Notes under the pieces: generated by a model | What the model was told of the DNA's origin: nothing | What the model saw: the letters and a program-made list of their open reading frames with translations, nothing else | The model's database searches: none | Translations under genes and position numbers: made by a program | Assembly: GCF_010747475.1 (NCBI RefSeq) | Contig: NZ_VSLZ01000007.1 | Coordinates: 1-64,000, forward strand | Direction: 5' to 3' | DNA from: Halorussus sp. MSC15.2 | GTDB lineage: Archaea > Halobacteriota > Halobacteria > Halobacteriales > Haladaptataceae | DNA length: 64,000 nucleotides | Shown here: positions 31,938-38,901 of the stretch, piece after piece | Layout: every line of letters begins with the position of its first letter | How positions within the stretch are numbered: position 1 is the stretch's first letter

Positions 31938-32190
31938 CTACCTTTTGCGACGAGCACCACCGCGAGCGCCTCGTGCGCTCGTATCTCCGCGAGTCGTAAT
32001 CGTACGAACGGTGAAGATTTGAACTCTGCAAGTCGCAGTCCCGGAAGCGCAACCCCGTGAGCATCCCGGAACGTCTTGCTCCGGTTCAAATCCCTTCCAG
32101 CCCGTTCTAACTACGACGAGCACCACCGCGAGCATCTCGTGGGCCGTACCTCTGGGGGTCCCACAGGACGACGCGAAAAGATTTGACCCC
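31916..32190 (+). repeat. Tandem tRNA-tail units downstream of tRNA-Lys
   Basis: Unit 1 (31916-32082) starts with the tRNA 3' end. Unit 2 starts with an exact 22-nt copy of it at 32083-32104 (offset 167 nt). Both units then share CGACGAGCACCACCGCGAGC (31948-31967 and 32114-32133, offset 166). Unit 1 next holds GAAGATTTGAACTC at 32013, and unit 2 holds AAAGATTTGACCCC at about 32178, each some 70-75 nt after the tRNA tail. The second unit runs into the promoter of the CBS-domain gene. No coding sequence is credible here. The layout matches the one downstream of tRNA-Arg. Confidence 0.85.
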
Positions 32191-32200
32191 CGTCGACCGA

Positions 32201-32209
32201 ATACTTATC
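32201..32209 (+). promoter_or_regulatory. TATA-like box for the CBS-domain gene
   Basis: ATACTTATC is centred about 28 nt upstream of the ATG at 32234, consistent with a leaderless transcript and supporting the MEDIFVGRL start over an earlier in-frame ATG at 32183. Confidence 0.5.
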
Positions 32210-32233
32210 AGCGAGGACGCAAAAGGAACGTTC

Positions 32234-32638
32234 ATGGAAGATATCTTCGTCGGACGACTCATGTCGTCCCCCGTCGAGACGGTCTCACCGGACACCGAGG
32301 TTCACGTCGCGGCCGAGAAGATGATAGACGAGCGCATCGGGTCGGTCCTCGTCACGGACGACGAGGGCCAACTCGCCGGTATCCTGACCGCCACGGACTT
32401 CGTCCACATCGCCGCCGAACAGCGGTGGGCCGCCGACGCGACGGTTGAGACCTACATGACGACCGACGTGACGACGACGACGGCGAACGCCGAAATACGC
32501 GACGTCGCGGACACGATGATAGAACAGGGCTTTCACCACATGCCTGTCGTGGACGAGACCGAAGGCGTCGTCGGCATCATCACGACGACGGACATCACGG
32601 CGTACATGTCCCACGTTCAGACGCCGAGTCCGTCGTAA
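32234..32638 (+). CDS. CBS-domain pair protein
   Basis: Start at MEDIFVGRLMSSPVETV gives 134 residues, exactly one CBS pair (Bateman module). CBS1 covers about 8-63 (VLVTDDEGQLAGILTATDFV) and CBS2 about 72-128 (YMTTDVTTTTANAEIRDVAD, then MPVVDETEGVVGIITTTDI). Such modules bind adenosine nucleotides and sense energy state; stand-alone forms regulate partners in trans. No partner is evident in the neighbourhood. Confidence 0.92.
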   Translation: MEDIFVGRLMSSPVETVSPDTEVHVAAEKMIDERIGSVLVTDDEGQLAGILTATDFVHIAAEQRWAADATVETYMTTDVTTTTANAEIRDVADTMIEQGFHHMPVVDETEGVVGIITTTDITAYMSHVQTPSPS

Positions 32639-32754
32639 TCGGCGCGTCGGCGGTTCCGGGTCGGTCTCCTGTCGCGGTCGAGTCGGTCGGCGACGAGCGT
32701 CGTTCACAGTCGCCGCAAAGTTTCGAGAATCGGACGAGCGGACGCTTCCGCGTC

Positions 32755-35989: not shown

Positions 35990-36067
35990 GCGACGCGCTT
36001 GGGCGTCGGCAAGCAAGTGCGTTCGGACTCGAAAGTATCAAATTCCCGGCGTGAATCTGTCGGTCCG

Positions 36068-37378
36068 ATGCACCGCCGCCACCTCCTCGCGGTTGCTGGC
36101 AGTGTCACCCTGTTCGACACCGCCGGTTGCGCGACGAACGCCTGCTCGCCCTCCGAGACCGACGCAGTCGACCCGCCGCCGACGGCGTGGCTCCGGCCGC
36201 GCTACGGTCCGACGAACGCGGGCGCACCGACGAGTGGGAAGCGACGGCCGACCGAACGCGCCCCTCCCGACGACCCTGCGACAGCGTGGACCTACGACGT
36301 GCCCGACGACGGCGTGACCAGCGCGCCAGTCGTCGCCGACGGCACCGTCTACGTCGCCACGGGTCTCCCCGACCGGTCCCGGCAGGAGAGGACGGACGGC
36401 TCGCTGTTCGCAATCGACCCCGAGACTGGGACCGAAAATTGGTCGAGCGTGCTTCCGAAGGGCGCGACCGGGCCGCCGACGATTGCAGGGAATCAAGTGG
36501 TCGTGGGCGCGCGTGACGGCATTCTTCGCGGATTCGATACGGACGGTAAACTGCAGTGGAGAATCGGTTTCGACTCGGCACCGAACACCCCGGCCGTCGT
36601 CGGCGATATGGCCTACTTGACGACCGTGAACGGGACCGTTCGCGCCGCGGAACTCGGGAGCAGCGACGCCTGCTGGACCCACTCGCAGATGCGACCCCGC
36701 GACCACCTCGGCTTCGGTCGAACCTACTTCTCGGAAGCCAAACCGGCGGTCACTGACGGCGTCGTCTACGCCGCAACGGCGACGAGCAGCAGTTCCGAAG
36801 GCCGGGACATCCAGCACAGTCGCCTACTTGCCATCGACGCCGAGACCGGTGAGCGCCGCTGGCAGTACTGGTTCGACGCCGACGAACCGCCCCGGACGCC
36901 CGCGGTCCGAGACGGCGTCGTCTACGTCGCGGGCGGTGACGCGCTTCACGCCGTCAACGTCGCGTCGGGCGAGCGCCGCTGGTCGTTCGCCACCGGCTAT
37001 CGGACGAGCAGTGCCCCCGCAATCGCGGACGGAACCGTCTACTGCTCCTCGAAGAACGTCTACGCGCTCGACGCCGAAACCGGCGACGAGCAGTGGCGAC
37101 ACGTCAACGAGGCCATTTCCGGGACGAGAAACCACGACGACGTGACCGCGCTCACGAACGCTCCCACGGTCGTCGGGAACACCGTCTACGTCGCGTTCGG
37201 CGCGCTCGACGCCGAAACGGGCGAGAAAGAGTGGGGCGAGTTTGGGAATCGGACCGACAGCGAGTACTACTATCTGACCGACCGCGACGCCGCGGCCGCC
37301 GGAGGTCCCGCGCTCGCGGACGGCGCGGCGTTCGTGACCGCGACGTACGGAACCGTTCACAGGTTCGGTGACGCATGA
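36068..37378 (+). CDS. PQQ-like beta-propeller lipoprotein
   Basis: Start at MHRRHLLAVAGSVTLFDTAGC gives 436 residues: a short hydrophobic leader with a lipobox ending in Cys 21, so surface-anchored. At least six propeller blades are visible, each with a variant of LFAIDPETGTENWSSVL, LLAIDAETGERRWQYWF or VYALDAETGDEQWRHV and the partner VVADGTVYVAT. The protein has the BamB/PQQ-repeat fold but no enzyme residues, so a scaffolding or binding role is likely. Its stop overlaps the start of the paralogue at 37375 by 4 nt. Confidence 0.9.
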   Translation: MHRRHLLAVAGSVTLFDTAGCATNACSPSETDAVDPPPTAWLRPRYGPTNAGAPTSGKRRPTERAPPDDPATAWTYDVPDDGVTSAPVVADGTVYVATGLPDRSRQERTDGSLFAIDPETGTENWSSVLPKGATGPPTIAGNQVVVGARDGILRGFDTDGKLQWRIGFDSAPNTPAVVGDMAYLTTVNGTVRAAELGSSDACWTHSQMRPRDHLGFGRTYFSEAKPAVTDGVVYAATATSSSSEGRDIQHSRLLAIDAETGERRWQYWFDADEPPRTPAVRDGVVYVAGGDALHAVNVASGERRWSFATGYRTSSAPAIADGTVYCSSKNVYALDAETGDEQWRHVNEAISGTRNHDDVTALTNAPTVVGNTVYVAFGALDAETGEKEWGEFGNRTDSEYYYLTDRDAAAAGGPALADGAAFVTATYGTVHRFGDA

Positions 37379-38565
37379 ACCGTCGCGCGCTCCTCGCGGC
37401 CTACGGCGCGGCGCTCTCGGCGGGTTGTTCGGGGTGGAGTCCGCTCGGGGGACCCGTCGGGTCCGGGTGCGACATCGCGGACGAGGTGCCGGGTGATACC
37501 GAGTGGGGGTCGGCCCGCGGGGACACGCACAACACCGCCTCGACGCCCGCAGACCGGACGCCAGCGCCGCCCCTCTCGACTTCGTGGACGTTCTCGATAC
37601 CGGGCGTGACCGGAATGCCGACCCCCACGGTGGTCGAGGACACGGTGTTCACCACCGACATGGACACGACCGTCTTCGCAATCGACGCCGAGTCCGGCGA
37701 CCAGCGGTGGCAAACGGCGGTCGACGGCCCCGAGAGCGCGGTCGTGGTCGTGGACGGGACGGCAGTCGTCACGAGCGACGAGGGCGTCGTCTCGCTCGAC
37801 GCCGCAGACGGGTCCGAGCGGTGGCGCACCGAGATACCGCCGACCTACAACACCTCACCTCTCGTCGCCGAGGGAGCGGTCTACGTCCCGTCCGACCTCT
37901 CGCTGGTCGCGCTCGACACCGACACCGGCGAGGAGCGGTGGCGATACACGACGGGACTGGAGACCGAAGCACCGCCCGCAGTCGCGGACGGCACGGTCTT
38001 CTTCGGCGACGGTGACGCCTACGTCTACGCGCTCGACGCCGTCGATGGGTCGGAGCGATGGCGGTTCAAAACTCGCGGAAGCGTCGAGTGCCCGCCGGCA
38101 ATCGTCGGCGAAACGGTGTACGCCGGGTCGAACGACGGCCGAGTGTACGCCATCGACGCAGCGACGGGCGAGCGGCGCTGGTCACACGAGACCGACGGCC
38201 GTATCGAAGCACTCGCGGTCGGCCACGGGAGCGTCTACGCCGGAACCGACCAGCGACTTCACGCGGTCCGACGCAGTTCGGGCGAGCGCTGCTGGCGCTC
38301 GGACCGCTACGTCAGCCAGTACACCGGCGGTCCCGCGGTCGGCGGTGGCTACGTCTACGCCTCGACTGGTCGGAGCGGTGGCGATACCGACTTGCGCGAG
38401 ACGGCAGTCGGCGCGTTCGACGCCGCGACCGGCGAACTCGTCTGGCGGTTCGGACCCGCCGAGAACCGACAGGTAGACCTCGGTCCCGCGATAGCGAACG
38501 GCGCGCTGTTCGCCGCTGGTGGCGGAGCGGGGAACCTCGAAGTCGCCCGACTCGACCCGAAGTAG
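37375..38565 (+). CDS. PQQ-like beta-propeller lipoprotein (paralogue)
   Basis: The 396-residue product begins MNRRALLAAYGAALSAGCSG, an RR-containing leader with lipobox LSAGC. It carries about seven blades such as VFAIDAESGDQRWQTAV, LVALDTDTGEERWRYTT, VYALDAVDGSERWRFKT and VYAIDAATGERRWSHE. It is the tandem duplicate of the upstream gene and is translationally coupled to it (ATGA overlap), so the two probably act at the same surface complex. The ligand or partner is unknown. Confidence 0.92.
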   Translation: MNRRALLAAYGAALSAGCSGWSPLGGPVGSGCDIADEVPGDTEWGSARGDTHNTASTPADRTPAPPLSTSWTFSIPGVTGMPTPTVVEDTVFTTDMDTTVFAIDAESGDQRWQTAVDGPESAVVVVDGTAVVTSDEGVVSLDAADGSERWRTEIPPTYNTSPLVAEGAVYVPSDLSLVALDTDTGEERWRYTTGLETEAPPAVADGTVFFGDGDAYVYALDAVDGSERWRFKTRGSVECPPAIVGETVYAGSNDGRVYAIDAATGERRWSHETDGRIEALAVGHGSVYAGTDQRLHAVRRSSGERCWRSDRYVSQYTGGPAVGGGYVYASTGRSGGDTDLRETAVGAFDAATGELVWRFGPAENRQVDLGPAIANGALFAAGGGAGNLEVARLDPK

Positions 38566-38624
38566 GTGTCGCGTCAACTCGTCGAGTTCGAAGTGTTCGC
38601 GATGCGGACTCCTCGCCTCGCTGC

Positions 38625-38901
38625 GCGGGCGTGCATCTGGTCTGCTCGAATCTCCGCAGATGGAGTATCCGCGACGCGGACTCCTCGCTTCGCTCTTCGT
38701 CGTTGCGTCGCGGCAGAAACGTCCTGACGGAGATTTGAACCTGACGAGACGGTCCGGGCGTGTGGCGCTTCGCGCCAGTCCGGGCGTGCGACTCGTCTGC
38801 TCGAATCTCCGTAGTTGGAGTTTTCACTCCACGGTCGTGCGAGACCCAAAGAAGGGTCTCGCGGACTTGCTCCGTGAAAACGTCCTGACGGAGATTTGAA
38901 C
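38625..38901 (-). repeat. Tandem tRNA-tail units downstream of tRNA-Arg
   Basis: Reading with the tRNA (minus strand), the tRNA 3' end at 38878-38901 is repeated perfectly (24 nt) at 38717-38740, an offset of 161 nt. Each copy is followed by a 9-bp hairpin (GCGAGACCC/GGGTCTCGC at 38839-38862; CCGCGACGC/GCGTCGCGG at 38669-38713) and then by GGAGATTCGAGCAGAC about 65-70 nt after the tail (ending 38810 and 38655). This fills the whole 315-nt space between the PQQ gene and the tRNA; no coding sequence is credible. Confidence 0.85.

Follow-up and report, generated by a model that had tools for sequence, protein, structure and literature searches.

What are the short stretches that follow two unrelated tRNA genes in this DNA, each ending in a second copy of its own tRNA's 3' end? 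The window, the whole stretch analysed here (64,000 nucleotides (nt); C7:1-64000 of the 4.4-Mb genome of Halorussus sp. MSC15.2), carries one such stretch behind tRNA-Lys and another behind tRNA-Arg. The original prediction held that both contain a shared motif followed by a copy of the tRNA's own tail, at offsets of 167 and 161 nt, and both copies proved to be exact: the Lys tail GGTTCAAATCCCTTCCAGCCCG at 31916-31937 is repeated in 22/22 positions at 32083-32104, and the Arg stretch AAACGTCCTGACGGAGATTTGAAC at 38878-38901 in 24/24 positions at 38717-38740. The shared motif starts at 32013 on the plus strand after tRNA-Lys (GAAGATTTGAAC...) and at 38810 on the minus strand after tRNA-Arg (GGAGATTCGAGC...). 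Both loci follow one order: tRNA, T-run, hairpin 1, a second hairpin (HP2), tail copy, and then a second unit that is decayed or truncated.

31864 to 31938, plus strand: tRNA-Lys (anticodon TTT), anchor of the first unit (ARAGORN; Rfam RF00005).
31945 to 31999, plus strand: hairpin 1 of the Lys unit, right after the T-run of the tRNA (RNA fold −26.1 kcal/mol, z −2.84).
32016 to 32092, plus strand: HP2 of the Lys unit, with inverted T-loop GATTTGAAC, inner stem GCAAG/CTTGC, variable loop and T-loop GTTCAAATC (RNA fold z −3.58).
32083 to 32104, plus strand: direct copy of the tRNA-Lys 3' part, 22/22 nt, offset 167 (sequence repeat).
32105 to 32191, plus strand: decayed second Lys unit (hairpin-1 copy and inverted T-loop remnant).
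38881 to 38953, minus strand: tRNA-Arg (anticodon GCG), anchor of the second locus (ARAGORN; Rfam RF00005).
38820 to 38880, minus strand: hairpin 1 of the Arg unit, TTTTCAC...GTGAAAA (RNA fold −33 kcal/mol, z −5.11).
38728 to 38811, minus strand: HP2 of the Arg unit, CGGAGATTCGAGC ... GTTCAAATCTCCG (RNA fold −46 kcal/mol, z −4.23).
38717 to 38740, minus strand: direct copy of the tRNA-Arg 3' part plus TTT, 24/24 nt, offset 161 (sequence repeat).
38592 to 38716, minus strand: truncated second Arg unit, hairpin 1 then CGGAGATTCGAGCAGACCAGATGCACGCCCGCGC, without a tail copy (repeat and sequence).

In the decayed Lys unit, the hairpin-1 copy at 32114-32144 is 90% identical to 31948-31978, and the inverted T-loop remnant GAAAAGATTTGACCCCC at 32175-32191 is kept in a relative without an intact unit; the two Arg units are linked by a 54-nt repeat (38626-38679 / 38781-38834, 80% identity). 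At gathering thresholds, the Rfam matches in the window were confined to tRNA and RNase P, and no model matched the units. The archaeal RNase P RNA gene lies at 45962-46366 on the minus strand.

Read on the tRNA strand, a unit runs from tRNA nt 53-73 through a T-run terminator and, usually, hairpin 1 to HP2; the next tail copy begins with the 3' arm of HP2. Units are non-coding, about 120-170 nt long (161-167 nt for both window units), always in the orientation of the tRNA, and arranged in tandem. The spacer motif (GATTTGAAC / GATTCGAGC) is an inverted T-loop that is predicted to pair with the T-loop of the tail copy and to close HP2. This identity of the motif as part of a covarying hairpin, the tandem and patchy occurrence of the units, and a copy of exactly nt 53-73 go beyond what had been predicted. 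HP2 opens with an outer box (T-loop and inverted T-loop) and a short spacer that is left unpaired; then come an inner stem, a U-U mismatch, two further pairs, and a terminal loop of highly variable length and sequence. Archaeal bulge-helix-bulge splicing substrates have two 3-nt bulges with a 4-bp helix between them; HP2, with an internal loop of about 2x3, a helix of about 5 bp and then a 1x1 U-U mismatch, does not fit this definition. Mechanically called open reading frames across the units include GFEPDESHARTVS and GGFEPCQSQARN, and the GFEP/RFEQT-like peptides are probably explained as frames through GGATTTGAACC/CGATTTGAGCAGACG.

We called tRNA genes with ARAGORN, with which Rfam RF00005 agrees for the window tRNAs, and trained a covariance model of HP2 (R1) on 13 copies from the window genome, including the Lys and Arg window units, which R1 matches as members of its training set at 32007-32096 (E 5e-22) and 38728-38817 (E 5e-17). 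The profile scan of haloarchaea that the original prediction proposed was run on 27 relatives from three genera, and a same-strand tRNA lay upstream of 100/102 profile matches; the audited loci are high-scoring HP2 model matches, and some loci in this three-genus set overlap, leaving its matches partly non-independent. In both exceptions, the sequence immediately upstream is a truncated tRNA 3' part. The first unit mostly lies 27-80 nt past the tRNA in this set, and further units follow about 120-165 nt apart. Among 60 further, held-out regions, 68/70 matches lay behind a same-strand tRNA, with one exception behind a tRNA end missed by ARAGORN and the other behind a truncated tRNA-Gly. The match at locus L216 has just a short upstream stretch resembling its tail. 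The claim that each unit is tailored to its own tRNA was borne out as well: the own tail outscored all other isotypes in 91/100 matches (three-genus set), and the own nt 62-73 were copied (direct match of at least 9 nt within 300 nt) at 70.7% of 249 distinct tRNA loci, mostly selected for carrying the element, compared with 1.1% for the tails of other isotypes. Motif hits scattered regardless of tRNAs, or tails mismatching their tRNA, the outcomes that the prediction had named against itself, did not occur.

The copied segment, tRNA nt 53-73, has sharp ends, with nt 52 often shared (0.88). In well-kept copies, identity was 0.97-1.0 for nt 53 to 71 and about 0.1-0.5 upstream; from two bases beyond the copy end it was about 0.5, in a stretch whose background is raised by T-runs. 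Across all copies, identity was 0.99 for nt 53-61 (inflated, because the T-loop served to find the copies), 0.96 for nt 62-65, and 0.92 for nt 66-72. Where the tRNA of a genome differs from the commonest allele of that tRNA, the copy agrees with the genome's own tRNA at 69 positions, with the commonest allele at 6 and with neither of them at 2.

In the window genome, taken without selection, an exact own-tail copy of at least 12 nt lies within 800 nt downstream of 13/45 ARAGORN predictions, which include one dubious 311-nt call, and an HP2-type unit, in some cases with a diverged tail, follows 16/45. R1 returned 16 matches at E<1e-3 there, comprising the 13 training copies and three others, at tRNA-Val-TAC, behind a displaced tRNA-Val-CAC tail, and at L060 (weak and unrelated). 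HP2 was found in 28/28 genomes of a family scan (2-28 matches each), in 233/242 genomes and 69/73 genera of the class Halobacteria (scoring covered the best 18 candidates in each genome, which makes the copy numbers lower bounds), and in 31/33 Halobacteria of a phylum sample, as opposed to 2/164 other genomes with marginal E values of about 1e-4; the family, class and phylum samples overlap. We regard the unit family as established class-wide in Halobacteria.

Among 151 non-redundant cores drawn from across the class, the columns of the inner stem were paired in 81-96%, compared with 48-78% with shuffled partners (z 5.4-13.7), and the spacer (internal-loop) columns were paired below chance (z −4.4 and −4.7). 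As 19 different 4-bp inner helices occur among 117 cores, this covariation does not come from one or two inherited changes, though partner shuffling ignores relatedness. T-loop base 57 and its partner in the inverted T-loop covary (T-A 92, C-G 19, C-A 14, T-G 2; p 7e-12), and the inverted T-loop tracks tRNA-specific T-stem bases weakly but significantly (2.42 versus 2.00 of 4, Arg-GCG excluded). HP2 is retained as a fold while its sequence varies.

Occupancy by HP2 at orthologous Halorussus tRNAs ranges from 2/7 (Lys-UUU) and 9/17 (Lys-CUU) to 14/18 (Arg-GCG), and tandem arrays reach five units. At Arg-GCG, tails are nearly identical over units and species, and hairpin-1 and loop types differ inside one array. 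Compared with the window Lys locus, that of a sister species is shorter by one unit (165 nt), its tRNA being followed by hairpin 1 and the same inverted T-loop remnant. The HP2 core occurs at 25 tRNA kinds, and the nearest core in another genome sat at the same tRNA in 39% of cases (33% without Arg-GCG), compared with 6% for shuffled labels, a clustering expected if a unit serves only its own tRNA. For cores at different tRNAs, the nearest was in the same genome in 5% versus 9% expected in Halorussus, and in 3.7% versus 1.8 ± 1.1% in the full set. Cores thus group by tRNA and only weakly, if at all, by genome; they are tRNA-bound lineages, with no sign of frequent recent tRNA-to-tRNA movement within a genome.

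Larger elements also occupy tRNA genes of the window genome. Inside tRNA-Val-CAC sits an island of about 28 kb (C1:1072261-1100165) that carries two integrase genes. It is bounded by the complete tRNA on one side and by a tail copy on the other, and its duplication of the tRNA begins at roughly the T-loop point at which that of the units begins; a unit comes after that tail copy. The integrase genes that lie beside tRNA tail copies in this genome are outside the small units. We also observed a strong palindrome, GGAGAGGTTCTGAAATC-TTT-GATTTCAGGTTCTCTCC, immediately before the far tail copy of the Val-CAC island. Two further integrase genes, at L223 and L226, adjoin copies of tRNA-Glu and tRNA-Thr-GGT 3' parts that, unlike those of the small units, extend back into the anticodon arm.

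Our tentative interpretation, held with somewhat less than even confidence, is that the units are non-coding, non-autonomous, tRNA-specific mini-cassettes that dock at the T-loop, perhaps via a folded recombination site. Recombination at the T-loop, from G53 onward, would insert or remove one unit. An incoming unit would bring the matching nt 53-73 plus terminator, and because it starts with these the tRNA would stay functional; the displaced old tRNA 3' end would remain as the tail copy, free to decay, and deletion would be the reverse. HP2 would be the putative folded recombination site, attC-like in principle: the inverted T-loop would make the T-loop double-stranded, next to a spacer that stays unpaired, an inner stem that covaries and a loop that varies. 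The enzyme would likely be a host- or island-encoded tyrosine recombinase. For this mini-cassette interpretation we counted the sharp copy ends, the following of own alleles, the covariation, the patchiness, the 165-nt difference, the tandem arrays, the tRNA-bound cores and the Val-CAC island.

Several observations weigh against it. Covariation fits a selected RNA equally. At the Lys locus, the relative's hairpin 1 resembles the tRNA-proximal window copy and not the distal one, a poor fit to a simple recent proximal insertion. The att segments of two other islands in the window genome start in the anticodon arm. The units are gene-less, no integrase-bearing relative ending in HP2 was seen, and the wobble asymmetry of HP2, a possible pointer to the strand or molecule that folds, gave no clear signal (21 GU versus 11 AC, p 0.11). 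A search of PLSDB plasmids gave no unit match, the phage search gave only tRNA genes among the matches listed, and three exact-pattern scans of sampled viral contigs returned 46 stretches with 0 HP2 model matches. Gene cargo was also considered and rejected: L058, L088 and L104, where HP2 lies far from a tRNA, are short units, either displaced by an island or behind a truncated tRNA 3' part. Separately, two HP2 matches in Halovenus (L219, 3596-5124) lie about 1.4 kb apart with a small gene between them and alike sequences behind both; this gap was rejected as a cassette, resembling a segmental duplication around the small gene.

The main rival is a cis-acting RNA function of the tRNA genes, which we consider somewhat unlikely: read-through transcripts would fold hairpin 1 and HP2, backing termination or protecting or processing the tRNA 3' end, and tandem number would shift by ordinary recombination between tails. 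Both hairpins fold better than shuffled sequences (mean z −3.4 for HP2 and −2.4 for hairpin 1), and the strong covariation and constant tRNA orientation speak for such a role. So does the TTT/TTC run that follows within 14 nt of 82% of tail copies, as against 28% of random 14-mers, and that matches the terminator type of Haloferax, a T-stretch plus TC (PMC7237163). A conserved function in cis is harder to reconcile with occupancy that varies from 2/7 to 14/18 orthologous tRNAs within one genus; the pairing of HP2 leaves the copied, unpaired acceptor nt 66-73 and their own-allele match unexplained, and units severed from the tRNA promoter by islands are still recognisable (L058).

It is quite unlikely, in our estimate, that the units are a neutral by-product, namely scars left by conventional integrative elements, or fold-back replication errors at tRNA 3' ends, which unequal recombination between tails, together with gene conversion, would have spread. 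Duplication of the tail is the standard integration footprint at tRNA 3' ends (PMC8371274; PMC7921747), islands sit at tRNAs of the window genome, and the acceptor part of the copies decays (0.92 versus 0.99 for the T-loop, the latter value being subject to bias from the search pattern). Were the units independent scars, they would not have in common one fold with 19 compensated inner helices, or one length class and one core across 69/73 genera. The covariation itself argues against neutrality, and the identical tails with differing cores within arrays indicate that whole-unit homogenisation is insufficient.

A transposon resembling a miniature inverted-repeat transposable element (MITE) that hops among tRNA genes with a 21-bp target-site duplication (nt 53-73) seems very improbable: the duplicated segment is sharply bounded and constant in length and one core is found at 25 tRNA kinds, but cores at different tRNAs of one genome are not clearly more alike than those of different genomes, the duplicated ends match tRNA-functional boundaries, and terminal inverted repeats or a link to a transposase were not seen by eye, with no systematic search made. 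Such target-duplicating hopping was not favoured, the cores lacking clear grouping by genome. That the tail copies are decoy attachment sites absorbing integrases to shield the tRNA is hardly credible, as these exact replicas of nt 53-73 stand beside the true site but integration at L058, and likewise at L088, L104 and L277 judging by their truncated tRNA 3' parts, occurred at the tRNA upstream of the unit and not at the copy, and HP2 is left unexplained.

A second class of small units pairs the acceptor segment rather than the T-loop: an inverted stretch corresponding to about nt 64-73 precedes a direct copy of nt 61-73 by about 40 nt, at Ala-CGC, Arg-CCT, Arg-GCG, Gly and Arg-CCG. Inverted 9-mers of the own tail occur at 6.0% of loci, compared with 0.7% for the tails of other tRNAs. 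We observed units of this class at L006, L011, L158, L166, L167, L308 and L330. In addition, L044 (window genome C1:1319217-1319302) and L280 carry a tRNA-like gene of 86-87 nt that has a long variable arm and that ARAGORN calls tRNA-Glu(UUC), besides which regular tRNA-Glu, Ser and Leu genes exist; it is possibly an orphan tRNA. A 3' end closely resembling that of this gene, followed by units, is present in a distant haloarchaeon.

A structured, tRNA-tailored and seemingly unnamed repeat family is present in about 96% of sampled haloarchaeal species, and it makes testable how short DNA can copy itself beside essential tRNA genes without breaking them. It affects annotation, through partial tRNAs and likely spurious GFEP/RFEQT-type proteins, as well as the calling of attachment sites for haloarchaeal viruses and islands. 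The unit family appears to be undescribed. Among open-licence papers, taken without their supplements, we found no earlier description save a remark on 11 partial tRNAs beside full copies in Haloferax gibbonsii LR2-5 (PMC7921747), which in the text available to us covers the remnant only, with hairpins, unit, tandem structure and family absent.

Among known systems, archaeal tRNA-targeting integrative elements (SNJ2, pNOB8 and related tyrosine-integrase families; reviewed in PMC8371274) share with the units the flanking direct repeat of the tRNA 3' part (nt 53-73 in the units), and the Val-CAC island starts at the same T-loop point. Unlike these elements, the units carry no integrase or genes, are 120-170 nt long, tandem, ubiquitous and multi-copy, and contain the T-loop in a conserved covarying hairpin.

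The R' box of integrons has the consensus GTTRRRY, a core that the unit box GTTCAAA/GTTCGAA does not contain. In IntI searches (TIGR02249), 0/18 Halorussus genomes exceeded the 265-bit cut-off, the best score being 52.9 bits, and a true integron was rejected on this ground and on that of the wrong core box. Like integron cassettes, the units stand in tandem in one orientation and each ends in a structure-conserved hairpin with the outer box, unpaired spacer, inner box and variable loop of attC (PMC2727003); unlike integrons, they are gene-less and form many separate arrays anchored at tRNAs. Archaeal integrons have been reported from metagenome-assembled genomes only, the main text of that report being silent on haloarchaea (PMC9668308). 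The resemblance holds in principle only. That the tRNA genes of Halobacteria are the docking sites of a class-wide integron-like system, whose gene-less cassettes would use a folded single-stranded site pairing the T-loop with its own inverted copy and would replace an essential tRNA 3' end at each insertion, is unlikely in our view.

A further parallel is offered by non-autonomous repeats of haloarchaea, the MITEs, PATEs and SMRs of Haloquadratum (PMC3119063), which are likewise short, non-coding and patchy, with near-terminal palindromes in the PATEs. Unlike these dispersed repeats, the units described here lie only behind tRNAs and carry tRNA-specific tails.

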